Below, piece after piece: positions 6,001 to 46,914 of a DNA stretch of 49,797 bases. The notes beneath the pieces are model-generated. The model was not told the DNA's origin and did no database searches. It saw only the letters and a program-made list of their open reading frames with translations. The position numbers and the translations under genes are program-made. The stretch is taken from IMG/VR virus record IMGVR_UViG_3300037587_000281, positions 1 to 49,797 of that record, one strand, 5' to 3'. This stretch comes from a virus. Every line of letters starts with the position of its first letter. The first letter of the stretch is position 1.

Positions 6001-6627
6001 ATGTTTAAAGAAATTCCTGCAAGTAAAATGTCAACTTCAAGAAGAAGATTAGTCCATGGCGTTGGAATAAATGACGCTAAATATATTATAAATCCATTAA
6101 TAAATGGCGAGATGACAAGGTGCCAATTTTACAGTAGATGGAATAAAATGATAACTAGATGTTATTCACTCAAATTCCAAGAAAGAAATCCTACGTATAT
6201 TGGGTGTTCTGCCTGCCCTGAATGGTTGATTTTTTCTAATTTTAAATCATGGATGGAAAAGCAAGACTGGGAAAACAAAGAATTAGACAAGGATATAATA
6301 TCTCCCGGGAACAAGATTTACAGTCCTGAAAATTGCGCTTTCGTTCCAAAACCACTAAACGGATTAATAGTCGACCAAGCCACATCTCGAGGTAAATACC
6401 CGCGTGGGGTTTATTTTAACGAGCTGAGGGGTAACATATGTTCTAATATTAGCTATCAAGGGGTTAGCACACATATCGGAACTTTCAGCACTACTAAGGA
6501 GGCGTCAAGAGCATACATAAAAGCAAAGGTTGAAATAATATTAGCCGCAGTTGATGAGCAGCAAGACATTAGAGTTGCAAACGGTTTAAAGCTTCATGCT
6601 GACTTATTGTTAAGAGATATCATCTAA
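6001..6627 (+). CDS. HNH/AP2-type homing endonuclease-like protein 1
   Basis: This 208-residue protein is one of four relatives in this genome (also 18918, 26436 and 37712). They share the blocks GVGINDAxY, a W..M..RCYS segment, PTYxGC..C.EW, and LDKDI...GNK.YSPENC.FV. The last block resembles a degenerate HNH core. The C-terminus (YPRGVYFNELRGN through IGTFSTTKEASRAYI) looks like an AP2 DNA-binding domain. Proteins of this kind in phages are free-standing mobile endonucleases. It separates the MuF-like gene from the portal gene. Confidence 0.75.
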   Translation: MFKEIPASKMSTSRRRLVHGVGINDAKYIINPLINGEMTRCQFYSRWNKMITRCYSLKFQERNPTYIGCSACPEWLIFSNFKSWMEKQDWENKELDKDIISPGNKIYSPENCAFVPKPLNGLIVDQATSRGKYPRGVYFNELRGNICSNISYQGVSTHIGTFSTTKEASRAYIKAKVEIILAAVDEQQDIRVANGLKLHADLLLRDII

Positions 6628-13596: not shown

Positions 13597-13633
13597 CCAC
13601 CGCTTTGATTAATAATCTTGGCGGTGGTACAAT
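13597..13633 (+). promoter_or_regulatory. Inverted-repeat promoter of structured RNA A
   Basis: CCACCGC (13597-13603) and GCGGTGG (13621-13627) form a 7-bp inverted repeat. The loop holds a -35 box TTGATT (13605-13610), spaced 17 bp from TACAAT (13628-13633), and the right arm supplies the extended -10 TGG. The paralogue at 46184-46219 has a different arm sequence that still pairs (CACGGAC/GTCCGTG), so pairing is conserved rather than bases. Confidence 0.7.
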
Positions 13634-13639
13634 TGGTTT

Positions 13640-13742
13640 GTTGATTGGAGTGAAGCCCATAGACAGAAGATAGGATTTAGTAAGTGACTGGTGTTAATTT
13701 TTCATTAACCCGCTTCAACAGTCACCTACTAAGTCCTTTTTT
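13640..13742 (+). ncRNA. Structured small RNA A with pseudoknot and terminator
   Basis: The transcript predicted from the promoter is about 103 nt. A 19-position helix pairs 13672-13690 with 13719-13737 (one A/C mismatch, one G-U) and ends in six T, forming the terminator. Inside it, GTTAAT (13693-13698) pairs with ATTAAC (13704-13709). The upstream TGAAGC (13651-13656) can pair with GCTTCA (13712-13717) inside the big loop, making a pseudoknot. The copy at 46226-46327 has the same four-part plan with different paired bases. No ORF of useful size lies in it. Confidence 0.75.
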
Positions 13743-14063
13743 ATTGCCTCAAGTTCCCCCCTCCAAACATCTAGGCGCTTTACAAAGTTTCCCCTAGGCA
13801 CGAGCCACCAAAAGCAGAAACGTTTACCAAAATAGCTTATATGTACAAATCAATATTAGATCGTCTTTGATAGCGGACGCACTTACACAGCAAATGTAGA
13901 GTGATAAACATCGTTAGTGGGCACTTTAGGTTTGTGACGGCATTATATGGATGTTGACCGTTTCTGATAAAGTTTAATATTGATACATGCTTATATAATT
14001 ATATTAATTAGCTCAGTGGGTAAGTGTCCCTAAGCTATCTAATGACAACTGTGGAGAAATAAA
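13743..14063 (+). other. Noncoding stretch downstream of RNA A
   Basis: About 320 bases with no convincing ORF. Blocks resemble the stretch after RNA B: TTGCCTCA just after the terminator, TATGGAT, TTTAATATTGATACATGCTT, and TTAATTAGCT..GTGGGTA near 14010. GCTTA and TAAGC near 13990 and 14032 could pair around the last block. It leads into the ribosome site of the 14064 gene, so at least the 3' part may be a structured leader. Confidence 0.5.
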
Positions 14064-14423
14064 ATGAGAGAGTTAACGCAAAAAGAAACTGATAACGCGC
14101 CTAGTTGGGCCACGCATTACGATGCAGTTGGTGATAGCGTCATGTTTGAGTCAAAAGATAATACACAAATGATGATAAAGGGTCAGCTTGGTAATTTGAT
14201 TCCTTTTGGGCCCGTATCGGAAGATTCACAACCAATCCCGAGCAAGGGGTTTGACATTAGTGAGTATCATCGAAACGAAAGTAATGAGAGTTTTTTTGTT
14301 GATGGTGATTTAATTACTCTGGTTAGGCGTGACAATTACACAAACCCATACTTTGAGTTAACAATGAAAGACGCAATAGCCCTAGCCAAGCACTTTAAGC
14401 TAACAGCGGAGGATTTGAAATAA
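14064..14423 (+). CDS. Hypothetical protein, 119 aa
   Basis: It begins MRELTQKETDNAPSWATHYD; the tryptophan and the short GDSVMFES strand suggest a small folded domain. The last 25 residues form a helix (TMKDAIALAKHFKLT). GGAG precedes the ATG. It shares the TAATG junction with the next gene. Family not recognised. Confidence 0.6.
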   Translation: MRELTQKETDNAPSWATHYDAVGDSVMFESKDNTQMMIKGQLGNLIPFGPVSEDSQPIPSKGFDISEYHRNESNESFFVDGDLITLVRRDNYTNPYFELTMKDAIALAKHFKLTAEDLK

Positions 14424-14710
14424 TGGAAGATATAAAGCCGTGTCCGTTTTGCGGCGGAGTGGATATTTCAACAAACAAATATTGCGTAACTCAACTTTGG
14501 TACATTCACTGTACTGATTGCCCAGCATTACTGGAAGAAAGCGGCGGTGGTTATTTTACTGAAAAAGAAGCGATTAAAGCATGGGATAAACGGGCTGATT
14601 TTTCAATGGTAGATGGCAAGCAGCTAGTCAGCGACAAGGCTATAGCTTATTTATTTAAACAGTGGCCGTCTGCATACGAGGAGTTTTATAAGCTACTAGA
14701 TGAGGATTAA
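14423..14710 (+). CDS. Lar-like zinc-ribbon protein, 95 aa
   Basis: The start MEDIKPCPFCGGVDIS, the second pair IHCTDC and the ending KEAIKAWDKR match the Lar restriction-alleviation family closely. A 30-residue extension follows. It is a second Lar-like gene in this phage, the other being at 4449. Antirestriction is the family association, not shown here. Confidence 0.75.
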   Translation: MEDIKPCPFCGGVDISTNKYCVTQLWYIHCTDCPALLEESGGGYFTEKEAIKAWDKRADFSMVDGKQLVSDKAIAYLFKQWPSAYEEFYKLLDED

Positions 14711-18917: not shown

Positions 18918-19556
18918 ATGTTTAATTTCCCACTTAAAAAAGCAAGCGCAAGATCGATCTCAAGAAGAAAGCCGGTTTATGGAGTTGGAATTAACGATTC
19001 TGATTACGTCGTGACCATAAAAATAAACAACAAGAGAAAGATCTGCCCGATATATAAAATATGGGCAAACATGCTTAAGCGATGCTACTGTAATGAGTTT
19101 CAAATAAAGAATCCTGCATATAATGGCTGTAAAGTTGTTTCATGGTGGAGAACGTTTAGTCATTTTAGGATCTGGGTAATAACCCAAGACTGGCAAGGGA
19201 AGGATTTAGATAAGGATTTTATTTTTAGCAACAATAAGATTTACTCGCCAAGCTCATGCTTGTTTGTTAATAGCGACATAAACAGACTTGTAGAAAAAAG
19301 AACAATATCAACTGGGCCTACTGCTTACGGAACTTATCTGGACAAAAGAAGAAGCTTATTTGTAGCAAGGTGTAGCGTAAGATCAAAAGATGTATGGATA
19401 GGCTCATATAAAAAAGAGAAAGAAGCAGGCGAGGCGTTTTTAAAATTCAAGTCTAATCACGTTCACGAAATAGCATTGCAGCAAACGGACGAGCGATTAA
19501 AACAGGCGCTAATCAGGATATCAGGCGAGATTAGCCGAGGCGAATACTACCAATAA
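18918..19556 (+). CDS. HNH/AP2-type homing endonuclease-like protein 4
   Basis: The 212-residue protein is a relative of the one at 6001: GVGINDSDYVV, MLKRCYC, NPAYNGC, QDWQGKDLDKDF and NNKIYSPSSCLFV. Some family positions have changed, for example the usual C.EW is VSWW. The C-terminal AP2-like part (GTYLDKRRSLFVARC, IGSYKKEKEAGEAF) is kept. It separates the tail tube gene from the tail chaperone gene. GAGGA precedes the ATG. Confidence 0.75.
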   Translation: MFNFPLKKASARSISRRKPVYGVGINDSDYVVTIKINNKRKICPIYKIWANMLKRCYCNEFQIKNPAYNGCKVVSWWRTFSHFRIWVITQDWQGKDLDKDFIFSNNKIYSPSSCLFVNSDINRLVEKRTISTGPTAYGTYLDKRRSLFVARCSVRSKDVWIGSYKKEKEAGEAFLKFKSNHVHEIALQQTDERLKQALIRISGEISRGEYYQ

Positions 19557-26423: not shown

Positions 26424-26463
26424 TCACCACAAGGGCTAGGCTTTCGTCCAATTCTTGTGGTGA
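26424..26463. terminator. Bidirectional terminator between tail tip gene and homing gene 5
   Basis: TCACCACAAG (26424-26433) pairs perfectly with CTTGTGGTGA (26454-26463) across 20 bases. T-rich tails follow on both strands. The hairpin includes the last codons of the minus-strand homing gene, so it serves both converging genes. Confidence 0.75.
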
Positions 26464-26972
26464 TTTCTTTTACCTCGACTAACGGCGCTCATATGCGACT
26501 GATTTAACCCATTATCACGGCAGAATTCAGACAGATTATACACATCAACATTCTCACCGCTTGGGCTTGTAAACTTATAGTGCTTAGCGCTTGACTCGAT
26601 AAGATTGTCCGCTTGTATCACAAAGCAACACGTCTCGGCAGAATAAGTTTTGTTACCCTTAACAAGAATATCTTTATCTAATTGCTTACCCTGCCAGTCT
26701 TGAGTTAGCATCCATAGACGGAACGCGCTAAATAAACACCACTCTTTACAGGTGGTGCACCCTTTATACGTTGGGTGTTTTTCCTGACATTTGGGCGAAT
26801 AGCAGCGGTGAATCATGTTTACCCACGTACGGTATATTGGGCACATAATCCGCTCGCCGTCAATTACCGGATAGGTCAAATAATCAGCGTCATTTATGCC
26901 AACGCCACAAACCAGTTTTCTAAAAGCTAGCGACTTATTACTTGCTGGAATTTCTTTAAATGAGTTTTTCAT
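26436..26972 (-). CDS. Homing endonuclease-like protein 5 with exchanged C-terminus
   Basis: The first 130 residues (FKEIPASN, GVGINDADY, RCYSPKCQEKHPTYKGC, QDWQGKQLDKDILVKGNK) are close to the proteins at 6001 and 37712. After FVIQADNL the AP2-like part is missing. Instead there is a helix-turn-helix module (VDVYNLSEFCRDNGLNQSHM, SAVSRGKRNHHKNW) like NUMOD1-type repeats. At 178 residues it is shorter than its relatives. It runs against the late operon and has its own promoter on the minus strand. Confidence 0.75.
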   Translation of the reverse strand: MKNSFKEIPASNKSLAFRKLVCGVGINDADYLTYPVIDGERIMCPIYRTWVNMIHRCYSPKCQEKHPTYKGCTTCKEWCLFSAFRLWMLTQDWQGKQLDKDILVKGNKTYSAETCCFVIQADNLIESSAKHYKFTSPSGENVDVYNLSEFCRDNGLNQSHMSAVSRGKRNHHKNWTKA

Positions 26973-37621: not shown

Positions 37622-37722
37622 TGTGTCACCTCGATTATATTAACGAATGAATAAGCTTCGATAATTGCGAATACCGCAAACAAGAACCAAAACCAGCGCT
37701 TTGCGTGCTTTTTATATGGCAT
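37618..37722 (-). CDS. Mini membrane protein, 34 aa
   Basis: MPYKKHAKRW followed by the hydrophobic segment FWFLFAVFAIIEAYSFV suggests a single membrane helix with a basic inner end. It overlaps the end of the homing gene by 11 bases. Confidence 0.4.
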   Translation of the reverse strand: MPYKKHAKRWFWFLFAVFAIIEAYSFVNIIEVTQ

Positions 37723-38356
37723 TGACAAGTCCTTTTGTTAGCTTTGCGGCGTGAAGCTTTAGTCCATTAGAGATTAGCGGGTCGCTTTGTTCGGATGCCG
37801 CTTGTAGTATTGTCTTTGACTTAGCATCGATGTATGCGGCGCTTGCCAATTCTGGAGTGGTATAACGACCTAAGTTTTTTGATGTTCCCTTTATATTAAC
37901 TCCAGCTTTATACTTTTTTGACTCCCTGTCATAGCTAACCCCCTGAGGGTATTCTCCTCTTTTTGCTGCGTGATCATTTAGTAGATGATTCAATTCTTTT
38001 GTTATGAATCGACAATTTTCAGGATCGTAAATCTTATTTCCAGGATTGATAATGTCTTTATCTAGATCCTTTCCTTCCCAGTCTTGCTGCTCCATCCAGT
38101 GCTTAAAAGACGTAAAACTAAGCCATTCCTCGCAAACTGCGCAATCAATATATGTTGGGTATTTTTCGTGATATTTTTTTGAATAGCACCTATTAAACAT
38201 ATTTTTCCATCTTGCGTAAAAAGGGCACGTGACTTGTTTACCTCTAATTAAAGGCATAACTATATAATCTGCGTCATTAGTTCCCATGGAAAATATCAAT
38301 TTACGTTTTGCTATTGATATTTTGCTTGCTTTGATTTGTATAAATTTATTTTTCAT
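37712..38356 (-). CDS. HNH/AP2-type homing endonuclease-like protein 6
   Basis: The 214-residue protein is closest to the 6001 one: FIQIKASKISIAKRKLIF at the start, GTNDADYIV, RCYSKKYHEKYPTYIDCAVC, QDWEGKDLDKDIINPGNK and YDPENCRFI. The AP2-like C-terminus (YPQGVSYDRESKKYKAGV, LGRYTTPELASAAY) is present. It lies in the early operon, unlike its three structural-block relatives, which shows spread to both arms. AAAGAGAT precedes the ATG. Confidence 0.75.
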   Translation of the reverse strand: MKNKFIQIKASKISIAKRKLIFSMGTNDADYIVMPLIRGKQVTCPFYARWKNMFNRCYSKKYHEKYPTYIDCAVCEEWLSFTSFKHWMEQQDWEGKDLDKDIINPGNKIYDPENCRFITKELNHLLNDHAAKRGEYPQGVSYDRESKKYKAGVNIKGTSKNLGRYTTPELASAAYIDAKSKTILQAASEQSDPLISNGLKLHAAKLTKGLVNAI

Positions 38357-39974: not shown

Positions 39975-40469
39975 ATGTCTAAAATCGCATTAGCACTAAA
40001 AATCAATGTTTCAGCAATGGATCCGGCTCGCTTATTCAATGGTCAAAAAGGTCAATACTTGGACTGTACAGTTTTTGTGGACCTCGACCAGTTAGATCAA
40101 TATGGCAATTCCGGCATGATCACTCAAGACGTTAGCAAGGAAGAAAAGCAGCAAGGTATTAAAGGTAATATCTTAGGCAACGCTAAAATATTCTGGACCG
40201 ACACAGGCCGTATGCCCCAGCCTCAGCAGCAGGGTAGCTATAATAATCAGCCTCCCCAGCAAGGTGGGTATCAAGCGCCGCAGCAGCAAGGCGGATTCCA
40301 GCAGCAAGCCCCACCGCAACAACAGGCGTCACAGCAAGGAGGTTATCAGCAACAGCCGCCAATGCAACAACAGCCACCACAACAGCAAGGTGGGTTTCAG
40401 CAACAAGCGCCATTACAACAGCATCCCCAGCAACAAGGCGGCTATGAATGGAACGATAACGGTCAGTAA
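39975..40469 (+). CDS. Single-strand DNA-binding-like protein with Q/P/G tail
   Basis: Residues 1-75 (LALKINVSAMDPARLF, DQYGNSGMITQDVSKEEKQQ, KGNILGNAKIFW) match small phage SSB-like proteins encoded beside ERF. Residues 80-155 are repeats of QQQGG(Y/F)Q and QQxPPQ, a low-complexity tail rich in aromatic Tyr/Phe, ending in YEWNDNGQ rather than the DIPF tip of bacterial SSB. Such tails promote self-association and protein contacts. The stretch antisense to it opens by composition only. Confidence 0.7.
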   Translation: MSKIALALKINVSAMDPARLFNGQKGQYLDCTVFVDLDQLDQYGNSGMITQDVSKEEKQQGIKGNILGNAKIFWTDTGRMPQPQQQGSYNNQPPQQGGYQAPQQQGGFQQQAPPQQQASQQGGYQQQPPMQQQPPQQQGGFQQQAPLQQHPQQQGGYEWNDNGQ

Positions 40470-40571: not shown

Positions 40572-41561
40572 ATGAAAACTGAACTATTGGTAATCGAACA
40601 ATCAGGATTTGAGCTTGAGCCATTTTTTACCAAAGGAACTGGTATTGATGAAATCTTAAATAAGCTTGAAACTGAAATTATGGCGCACGTACCTGATGTT
40701 TCGACCGTGAAAGGTCGTGGCGAAATAACTGCAAACATATCGAAAGCGAAGGTATATAGACTTCACTTGTTTGATTGCCGTAAAAAACTATCGGCAGAAT
40801 ACAAATTGATACCATCAACAATAGATAAACATGGGAAAAAAGTTAACGATTTTCTATTGAATATTGAAGCTAAAGCAAGAATTCAGCTCACCGAATGGGA
40901 AGTCGAAGATAAGGCGAAAAAAGAGCGTGCGGCGTTACTGGTTAAAATTGAGCAAAAACATGATGACGCAAATATTGAAAATGAGCTATTTGATTTGAAG
41001 GCCAAACAAGCCGAAGCCGATCGCCAAGCTGAAATCAAAGCAGCATCAGAAAAAGCGGCCGCAGAAGCTAAAGCACAAGCCGAAGCCGAAGCGGCCGAAC
41101 GAATCGCTCAGGCCGAGCGCGAAAAAATCGCAGCCGAACAGCGCGAGATAGCAGCCAAGCAAGCAGTTATTGATGCGGAAAATAAAGCGGCTCAAGATGC
41201 TATCGACGCTAAAGCTCGCGAAGAAAAAGCCAAGCAAGATGCTATCGATGCCCAAGGGCGAGCGCGATATGAAGCGGAACAGGCAGAACAGCGCAGAATT
41301 TTTGCAGAGCAACAAGCAAAACGTGATGCTGAAGTCGCCGCAGAAAATGCGCGAAAATGCGAAATAAGAAAACAGGAAGTCGAAGCGCATCAAGCAAAGG
41401 TCGATAAAGAAGCGAGAGAAGCAAATAAGCGTCATGTTAACGGCATTAAGACTAAGGCCATGAATGACTTTATATCATGCGGCCTAGATGACGCTAGCGC
41501 ACGCTTAGCAGTTAAGGCATTGGCAGCTGGCAAGATTAGCAACGCAGGAATTAGCTACTAG
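40572..41561 (+). CDS. Coiled-coil recombination-associated protein
   Basis: The ATG at 40572 fits the AGGTGG site. The first 110 residues (PDVSTVKGRGEITANISK, a basic helix and GKKVNDFLLNIEAKARI) follow a layout common next to phage recombinases, in the DUF1351-like style. Residues 120-280 are an Ala/Glu/Lys/Gln coiled coil resembling TolA. A compact helical end follows (DFISCGLDDASARLAVKAL). It may be a scaffold for the ERF-SSB complex, by position. Confidence 0.6.
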   Translation: MKTELLVIEQSGFELEPFFTKGTGIDEILNKLETEIMAHVPDVSTVKGRGEITANISKAKVYRLHLFDCRKKLSAEYKLIPSTIDKHGKKVNDFLLNIEAKARIQLTEWEVEDKAKKERAALLVKIEQKHDDANIENELFDLKAKQAEADRQAEIKAASEKAAAEAKAQAEAEAAERIAQAEREKIAAEQREIAAKQAVIDAENKAAQDAIDAKAREEKAKQDAIDAQGRARYEAEQAEQRRIFAEQQAKRDAEVAAENARKCEIRKQEVEAHQAKVDKEAREANKRHVNGIKTKAMNDFISCGLDDASARLAVKALAAGKISNAGISY

Positions 41562-41572
41562 ACCAAGGTCTA
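41559..41572. promoter_or_regulatory. Palindromic site, copy 1
   Basis: TAGACC-AA-GGTCTA followed by ATACCACAAC. The reverse complement occurs at 45717-45730 with the same downstream context. The right arm overlaps a possible -10 box TCTAAT, so it may be an operator. Confidence 0.5.
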
Positions 41573-41633
41573 ATACCACAACCCACAAACAAGGCTTACT
41601 CTTATGGGTAAGCCGCTAACAAGCGAGAACGAT

Positions 41634-45706: not shown

Positions 45707-45716
45707 ATTTGTCAAC

Positions 45717-45730
45717 TAGACCTTGGTCTA
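45717..45730. promoter_or_regulatory. Palindromic site, copy 2
   Basis: TAGACC-TT-GGTCTA, the reverse complement of the site at 41559-41572, followed by the similar ATACACAAAC. It precedes the mini membrane gene at 45780. Confidence 0.5.
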
Positions 45731-45779
45731 ATACACAAACATCAAAGCTTATGAGATATTAGATATCAAGGGGAAAGTC

Positions 45780-45954: not shown

Positions 45955-46176
45955 ATGAGTAACTTAATATCACACCCAGAGCAGTGTCAAGCGGTAAACT
46001 TAGATACAGTTGTTAGTGTATTCCATCAAGCGGGCATATCTAAAAAGATATGGTTTTCATACCCTGCGATAAGCATTGATAGCGAACTGGAAGTAACTTG
46101 GGAATTCAAAACTAAGGAGGAGGCTGGAATCGTTTACAATAAAATACTTGATAGATTCGTAACTGAAATAAATTAA
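45955..46176 (+). CDS. Hypothetical protein, 73 aa
   Basis: A small alpha/beta-looking sequence (LDTVVSVFHQAGISKKIWFS, SELEVTWEFKTKEEA). AAGGAAA precedes the ATG. It is the gene just before RNA B. Family unknown. Confidence 0.5.
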   Translation: MSNLISHPEQCQAVNLDTVVSVFHQAGISKKIWFSYPAISIDSELEVTWEFKTKEEAGIVYNKILDRFVTEIN

Positions 46177-46183
46177 ATAACAT

Positions 46184-46219
46184 CACGGACTTTTGATTAT
46201 TCATGGTCCGTGGTACAAT
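46184..46219 (+). promoter_or_regulatory. Inverted-repeat promoter of structured RNA B
   Basis: CACGGAC (46184-46190) pairs with GTCCGTG (46206-46212). The arm runs into TGG-TACAAT (46211-46219), an extended -10 box. The loop holds TTGATT, here only 15 bp from the -10. The pairing is kept although four arm bases differ from copy A. Confidence 0.65.
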
Positions 46220-46225
46220 GGTTTT

Positions 46226-46327
46226 GTTGATTGGCGTCGGAACCAAAAGACACTAGATAGGGTTTAGTTAGTAACTGTGATGATTCAACATCATCATTCC
46301 GACCAGTTACTAGACTAAGCCTTTTTT
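46226..46327 (+). ncRNA. Structured small RNA B with pseudoknot and terminator
   Basis: Main helix: 46261-46277 with 46304-46321, 17 pairs and one bulged G, followed by six T. Inner hairpin: TGATGA (46278-46283) with TCATCA (46291-46296). Pseudoknot: GTCGGAA (46236-46242) with TTCCGAC (46297-46303), seven pairs lying directly between the inner hairpin and the main helix. Every helix differs in sequence from copy A but pairs in the same place. The leader TTGTTGATTGG and the end CCTTTTTTA(A/T)TGCCTC are nearly identical in both. Confidence 0.75.
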
Positions 46328-46671
46328 AATGCCTCAGTTTTACGTCAAGATTTATCCTAGAGCACATTCTTTATCAACAAAACATGATATTCAAAGCTAC
46401 GAATCAAAATAGCAATTAACACAAAGTCCAAGCACTGTCCCGCCATGACAACTTGGCCCCATCATGAAACTCTATGAGTGTCAGCGTTATTTATAACGAC
46501 CGAGTAATCGGGTTAGGGGATCAATTAGTACCTATGGATTGTTATTTGGTCCATATTTAACTAGATACACGCTTTGCCATCTTGGATAAGCCCTTTAGTT
46601 AACTAGCTGTGTAGGTATCAGTTAGGGGAAAATGGCTTAACTATGTCTTAAATTAATAATTGGAGAATAAA
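46328..46671 (+). other. Noncoding stretch downstream of RNA B
   Basis: About 340 bases without a convincing ORF. It shares spaced blocks with 13743-14063: ATGCCTCA, TATGGAT, TTTAACTAGATACACGCTT and TTAACTAGCT..GTAGGTA. Near the end AAGCC and GGCTT, and AGTTA and TAACT, can pair just before the GGAG site of the next gene. It may be a structured leader or a second RNA. Confidence 0.5.
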
Positions 46672-46914
46672 ATGATTGATGACAAAAAAAGATTAGTTGA
46701 AGTCTGTGCCGAATGCGGATGCGCCAGCTGTTATCACGGTGAGTTCATGTGCTGGGAATCCACAACCGCAGGAACCAAAAAGAGGACAGTAGCCCAGTTA
46801 GACGAAGCATATTTAGAAGATAAGCACCACTACTCGAAAGAAAACATTAAAAAAGTGTATGGAGAAGAAGCGCCGCACGGATATGAAACAGAGCAGTGTG
46901 TTACGGGGGAATAA
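46672..46914 (+). CDS. Cysteine-containing hypothetical protein, 80 aa
   Basis: The ATG at 46672 behind TTGGAG is preferred over an upstream TTG. CAECGCASCYHGEFMCW near the start suggests a zinc knot. An acidic helical tail follows. It is the first gene after RNA B. Function unknown. Confidence 0.55.
   Translation: MIDDKKRLVEVCAECGCASCYHGEFMCWESTTAGTKKRTVAQLDEAYLEDKHHYSKENIKKVYGEEAPHGYETEQCVTGE

Follow-up and report, generated by a model that had tools for sequence, protein, structure and literature searches.

The gap between two ORFs near the end of this viral genome raises the question of whether it encodes a self-contained small RNA or one part of a larger transcript. The window (the whole stretch of DNA analysed, a 49,797-base virus record) was found, on reading of its ORFs, to carry terminase-like genes first, followed by capsid and tail genes, with small accessory genes toward the end. 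The sequence in question, termed copy B (46214-46333, counted from its -10 box), lies between ORFs 45955-46176 and 46672-46914. An earlier note had described it as a structured small RNA with its own terminator, and as a paralogue of a second sequence in the window, copy A. The structured part of each copy is referred to here as D1 and the non-coding region that follows it as D2 (Table 1).

Table 1. Positions of copies A and B, their structural elements and adjoining features in the window
Feature	Position	Strand	Basis or remark
Predicted promoter of copy A (TTGATT, 17 nt, TACAAT)	13605-13633	+	Sequence
D1 of copy A; pseudoknot arms TGAAGC (13651-13656) and GCTTCA (13712-13717); U6 at 13737-13742	13637-13748	+	
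Non-coding region downstream of copy A, a 3' module differing from that of copy B	13749-14050	+	93% identical to L006
Dyad CACGGAC/GTCCGTG, the former 'leader'; promoter DNA around the -35 region	46184-46212		Sequence, comparison of loci
Predicted sigma-70-type promoter of copy B (TTTTGA 46191-46196, 17 nt, TACAAT 46214-46219)	46191-46219	+	Sequence
D1 of copy B, 5' pseudoknot domain, to ATGCCT past the U run	46223-46333	+	R1 model, covariation
P1 hairpin TTGG/CCAA with loop arm PK5, GTCGGAA (46236-46242)	46231-46246	+	Structure and covariation
P2 (46261-46277/46304-46321), enclosing P3 and PK3	46261-46321	+	Folding, covariation
P3, inner hairpin TGATGA/TCATCA	46278-46296	+	Sequence, covariation
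PK3, second pseudoknot arm TTCCGAC	46297-46303	+	Sequence, covariation
U6 run after P2, intrinsic-terminator-like, probably leaky	46322-46327	+	Conserved in nearly all relatives
Non-coding region downstream of copy B, a D2-type 3' module	46334-46641	+	Partners L010, L253, L254, partly L018

Following the TACAAT of its predicted promoter, copy B was found to consist, in order, of TTGTTGATTGG, P1 with GTCGGAA in its loop, a linker, the 5' strand of P2 (GGTTTAGTTAGTAACTG), P3, TTCCGAC, the 3' strand of P2 and U6. Its predicted fold has an energy of -53.8 kcal/mol (z = -5.8), which none of 200 shuffled sequences equalled. A de novo topology finder, specifying a 7-bp pseudoknot, P1, P2 and a T run, was used to scan both strands of the 50-kb window and returned copy B as its single site, with 0.25 sites expected per shuffled window. 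Copy A was missed because its pseudoknot arm is only 6 bp, which is under the cut of the finder. Copy A (13628-13748, counted likewise from its -10 box) nevertheless possesses the same order of elements in other letters, with GTTAAT/ATTAAC as its inner hairpin. All of the elements previously named for the two copies, including both pseudoknots and both inner hairpins, were present in the sequence. The order proposed to be common to them was upheld from P1 through U6, while the 'leader' hairpin placed at its start was identified as promoter DNA lying before the -10 box.

The second gene beyond copy A (14423-14710) was observed to match phrog_599 (E 5.9e-11), which is a Lar-like restriction alleviation family. 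The nearness of this gene suggests that the RNA sits within an accessory, possibly anti-restriction, island.

The promoter predicted for copy B is a weak match that the promoter scan did not list. Across the related loci, judged from the sequence only, promoter-like sites were identified 5' of D1 at 27 of 43, with 3.5 expected. The dyad around the -35 region keeps its position with varied sequence in copy A, L006, L011 and others, and is absent in L007 and L019. It was placed outside the predicted RNA as it is upstream of the -10 box, spans the -35 region and is missing in several homologues; in Vibrio phage 1.216.O the promoter dyad is present and the RNA absent. The inverted repeats at the -35 region of D1 promoters (13600-13626 and 46184-46212 in the window; also L006, L011 and L013) thus retain position and complementarity but not sequence. 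This would be odd for a protein operator, and they are perhaps hairpins that end the upstream mRNA instead. A motif before the next gene, TCTAATGAYAAST, was considered as a phage promoter and set aside, having 10 matches in the window with 5.1 expected.

No Rfam family was found to match the window, and Rfam matches to microRNA and leader families fell far short of their gathering scores and were regarded as chance. A similarity search using copy A as the query identified intergenic matches in three Vibrio phages (jenny 12G5, 1.131.O and 1.090.B), and exact-pattern scans of viral contigs identified approximately 35 more loci with the full structure. The patterns used were drawn from stretches of the 5' segment or from the flank of the T run, not from the pseudoknot, and some of the loci are near-identical. 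Four of seven exact pattern matches (L004, L005, L008 and L009) were discarded as having no D1 structure. Shewanella phage 1/40 was likewise rejected as a relative; it has a 19-nt exact match to the 5' segment, yet no D1 topology was detected in it with the strict finder. The same exact pattern in bacterial genomes gave no structured match among the matches listed. Every structured homologue recovered is in a viral contig or a phage record, and the homologues belong to tailed phages, many of them of Vibrio.

At 42 of 43 loci the two pseudoknot arms form 7 bp with each other, using about 25 different 7-mers. Covariation was examined in an alignment (A9) of 18 distinct sequences, made using MAFFT without structure, onto which a structure hand-written from copy B was placed. 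Over the whole structure, including the pseudoknot, 98.5% of cells were paired, compared to 82.6% for shuffles and 27-50% when the structure was slid by 1-3 columns, with 15 pairs showing changes on both sides. For the pseudoknot itself pairing was 99.2%, with both sides changing in six of seven pairs and no G-U, and both-side changes were identified in all six pairs of P3. P2 was largely invariant at its two ends, five of the eight pairs at its base and all three at its apex never varying. The near-complete change of paired bases claimed in the earlier note holds for the pseudoknot and the inner hairpin, but not for these two parts of the main helix. In paired cells, G-U exceeded A-C by 25:1 in D1 and 289:3 in D2, which fits an RNA of the + strand, with the caution that both structures were derived on that strand.

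A covariance model built from A9 (R1) scored copy B at 94.3 bits and copy A at 81.5 bits (13637-13746), both copies being among its training sequences. R1 copies number two each in the window, G001 and G005, and one apiece in several Vibrio phages. D2 later led to a third, diverged copy in G001 (L253), in which the U run is predicted to lie inside a longer P2. D1 of copy B is almost certainly a real RNA structure; the proposal of a functional structured RNA was strongly supported once covariation was run on more homologues, with both the pseudoknot and the inner helix passing. The further suggestion that the two loops have different targets gained no support, as the arms are complementary to each other in homologues and are thus explained without an outside target. 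In the literature searched, which lay mostly outside subscription journals, no description of this RNA was found, and in the records inspected the element is unannotated or overlaid with hypothetical proteins. The family is unannotated and novel, yet not novel in kind.

At every locus with enough sequence, the RNA was found to precede 250-520 nt in which no convincing gene lies, with an ORF on the same strand beyond; D1 and the non-coding region together cover about 370-640 nt. All-against-all comparison revealed blocks common to loci whose neighbours are unrelated. The similarity of L010 to copy B runs from the -10 box through GGCTTA and is lost on either side.

The linkage of the two parts was sampled independently of D1 by scanning viral contigs with a 21-mer of one D2 family, which gave 51 loci with enough upstream sequence. 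By inspection, a D1-type element lies directly 5' of the 21-mer in 49 of these, and in many it is of a type with the same topology in wholly different letters (with GCAG/CTGC as P1 and, for example, TTGATACC/GGTATCAA as the arms). The two loci without D1 are L212, where the D2 structure is not kept, and L220. For this family, the best sampled, a D2 structure of 45 pairs was 98.4% paired (shuffles 90.1%, slid 39-46%), with 20 pairs changed on both sides; the structure was predicted on its own test alignment and is therefore somewhat favoured, the margins over slid and shuffled controls being wide. Single-sequence folding of the D2 regions of the window itself is not unusual (z of -0.67 for copy B and 0.0 for copy A). 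As this folding is ordinary and relatives are few, a structure for these regions is suggested by analogy with other D2 families. The region downstream of copy B, used alone as a query, returned no convincing phage record.

Pairing between the 5' leader of D1 and D2 was considered and rejected, as over 33 loci the leader paired with its own D2 as it did with foreign D2 (mean -7.0 vs -7.0 kcal/mol, mean p 0.41), with good pairing in a few loci only (L012, L015 and L040). No terminator was found after D2 in 35 of 40 loci, and for a long RNA to have a defined 3' end, processing would therefore be required. In L038, L046, L055, L068 and L070, a TTGACA-17-TAAACT promoter was observed between D2 and the next gene. 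The spacer of this promoter holds a palindrome, TTAAG-NTAN-CTTAA, of which the central letters vary and the symmetry is kept.

Among Vibrio phages, D1 was found to be situated 3' of a small-gene cassette and 5' of a variable gene. In phages 1.071.A, 1.127.O and K68, the promoter (CCCCACTTTGCATTTGTGTGGAGTGGGGTGTATAAT and close variants) and D2 are as in 1.135.O, with D1 replaced by an unrelated pseudoknotted RNA, D1', that consists of two long interleaved complementary strands and has no U run. The D2 of 1.135.O thus occurs with D1 or with D1', and in 14E30.2 D1' is joined to yet another D2. Matches to D1' occur in 88 Vibrio records, with an identity of at least 90% in nearly all of them. Where it was folded (L246:1655-1810; also present in L245, L248 and L249), D1' has a z of -4.5, is highly conserved and has no Rfam match, and in some Vibrio phage records annotated hypothetical proteins overlie it. 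Three relatives, L027, L254 and Vibrio phage 242E40-1 (L243), were found to have a tRNA between D1 and D2, each tRNA scoring above its Rfam gathering score; ARAGORN found no tRNA in L243 or L027. No tRNA was found in the window.

Other features of the window were also noted. Four paralogous proteins (6001-6627 and 18918-19556, with 26436-26972 and 37712-38356 on the - strand) have a common start, EIPASK/QIKASK...RKL...G.NDA.Y, and resemble phage HNH/AP2-type nucleases; a relative of these is the gene right after the D1-D2 element of L024. Two palindromes of the form ACTAGACC(AA/TT)GGTCTAATAC (41557-41576 and 45715-45734), 90% alike and 4.2 kb apart, are candidate operators. The protein encoded at 39975-40469 has a glutamine-rich repetitive tail and is perhaps a single-stranded DNA-binding protein.

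Given that a non-coding stretch always follows, that D1 and D1' are swapped and that tRNAs occur at the joint, copy B is read as the 5' domain of a larger RNA. It is probable that D1 and D2 form one functional unit, since 5' and 3' modules exchange as parts of one thing. The chances are about even that copy B forms the 5' domain of a non-coding phage RNA that is modular, measures approximately 430 nt and acts, as the long product, in the form of RNA. In the mechanism proposed, a host-type promoter would start transcription a few bases before TTGTTGATTGG, and D1 would compact into a pseudoknot in which the 7-nt loop of P1 kisses the 7-nt strand between P3 and P2. Some transcripts would probably stop at the U6 after P2 (at approximately 110 nt), with the remainder continuing through D2 (240-330 nt), a second structured domain, and on into the accessory gene that follows. 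In lytic growth the long product would then work as RNA, much as has been suggested for GOLLD and ROOL, as a scaffold, a decoy or in assembly, and not as a base-pairing regulator. U6 is not listed by a simple terminator scan because of the large loop, and in relatives RNA structure continues past it.

An extension of the earlier view, by which D1 would be a stand-alone promoter-RNA-terminator unit of approximately 110 nt (an RNA 'moron') that acts in trans by its structure or by base pairing and that D2 merely adjoins, is considered rather unlikely. The promoter-like sites and the U run behind a GC-rich stem, the latter kept almost everywhere, would suit an independent short RNA, as would the ordinary folding energy of D2 in the window and the failure to find pairing between D1 and D2. 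However, sampling through D2 alone recovered D1 at nearly every locus, a non-coding stretch always follows, with a covarying D2 where testable, and D1', with no U run, takes the place of D1 between the same promoter and D2. Arms that are complementary to each other also leave no need for a target in trans.

It is unlikely, too, that D1 is an attenuator and D2 the long structured 5' leader of an accessory operon, with the pseudoknot tuning termination at U6. A gene on the same strand is next in every locus with enough sequence, usually with no terminator between, but the shared strand is uninformative, being common to all nearby genes. The downstream genes are moreover unrelated (methylase, nuclease, tailspike and hypothetical), one D2 family has its own promoter between D2 and the gene, and tRNAs can lie within the element. 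The sharp borders of the exchanged blocks and their unrelated flanks could instead mark a structured DNA site, such as a recombination joint for swaps of accessory genes, with the RNA-like covariation as a by-product. This is very improbable, given the promoters 5' of D1, a pseudoknot topology typical of RNA and the excess of G-U over A-C, the last read with the same caution as to strand.

Returning to the modular RNA, a wider reading is offered tentatively, at rather less than even confidence. D1, D1' and the several D2 types may belong to an undescribed superfamily of ornate phage RNAs with exchangeable 5' and 3' modules and uptake of tRNAs at the joint, in which the letters of P3 and the pseudoknot diversify so that co-resident copies avoid mispairing, and which possibly self-assemble like GOLLD and ROOL. 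Isolated Vibrio phages that may be genetically tractable carry the family (1.135.O, jenny 12G5 and V. natriegens phage vB_VnaS-L3), and its natural domain swaps are ready-made experiments. Rfam would gain a new family with clean covariation.

Among known RNAs, the Pistol ribozyme has a P1 loop that forms a pseudoknot with the strand adjoining P2. D1 differs from it in having no Rfam match and a P2 of 17-18 bp with P3 inserted. Kissing loops assist the assembly of two other phage RNAs, GOLLD and ROOL; GOLLD, with many members above 800 nt and a linker that sometimes holds tRNAs, assembles into an RNA nanocage, and ROOL is a large RNA with multiple pseudoknots that is often near tRNA islands (PMC12286853). 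The RNA described here is like GOLLD in being phage-encoded, non-coding and elaborately structured, in having kissing or pseudoknot pairings for which covariation gives support, and in having one part more conserved than the other. A tRNA lies at the joint in three relatives, as in the linker of some GOLLD RNAs, and the window has none. The RNA differs from GOLLD in its size (approximately 430 nt, compared to above 800 nt for many GOLLD members) and in that both halves are exchangeable. With ROOL it shares being a phage-encoded, structured and pseudoknotted RNA, and it differs in size, in structure and, in the window, in having no tRNA. Neither the GOLLD Rfam model (E up to 5, E up to 2, gathering score) nor that of ROOL matched the window or the related loci scanned.

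In phage ICP1, the most abundant transcript is an ORF-less RNA of approximately 800 nt between gp139 and gp140, the length of which its authors liken to GOLLD and ROOL (PMC7567579). It was rejected as a homologue, the ICP1 gap having no sequence similarity and no D1-type topology, and it differs in ending in an ordinary GC hairpin and T run. A Vibrio phage, an ORF-less gap and a long RNA are nonetheless common to both, and the ICP1 RNA is the closest experimental parallel in Vibrio phages. The modular RNA proposed for copy B resembles GOLLD and ROOL in kind while not being a detectable member of either, and a GOLLD-like role for it is conceivable, if somewhat short of an even prospect.
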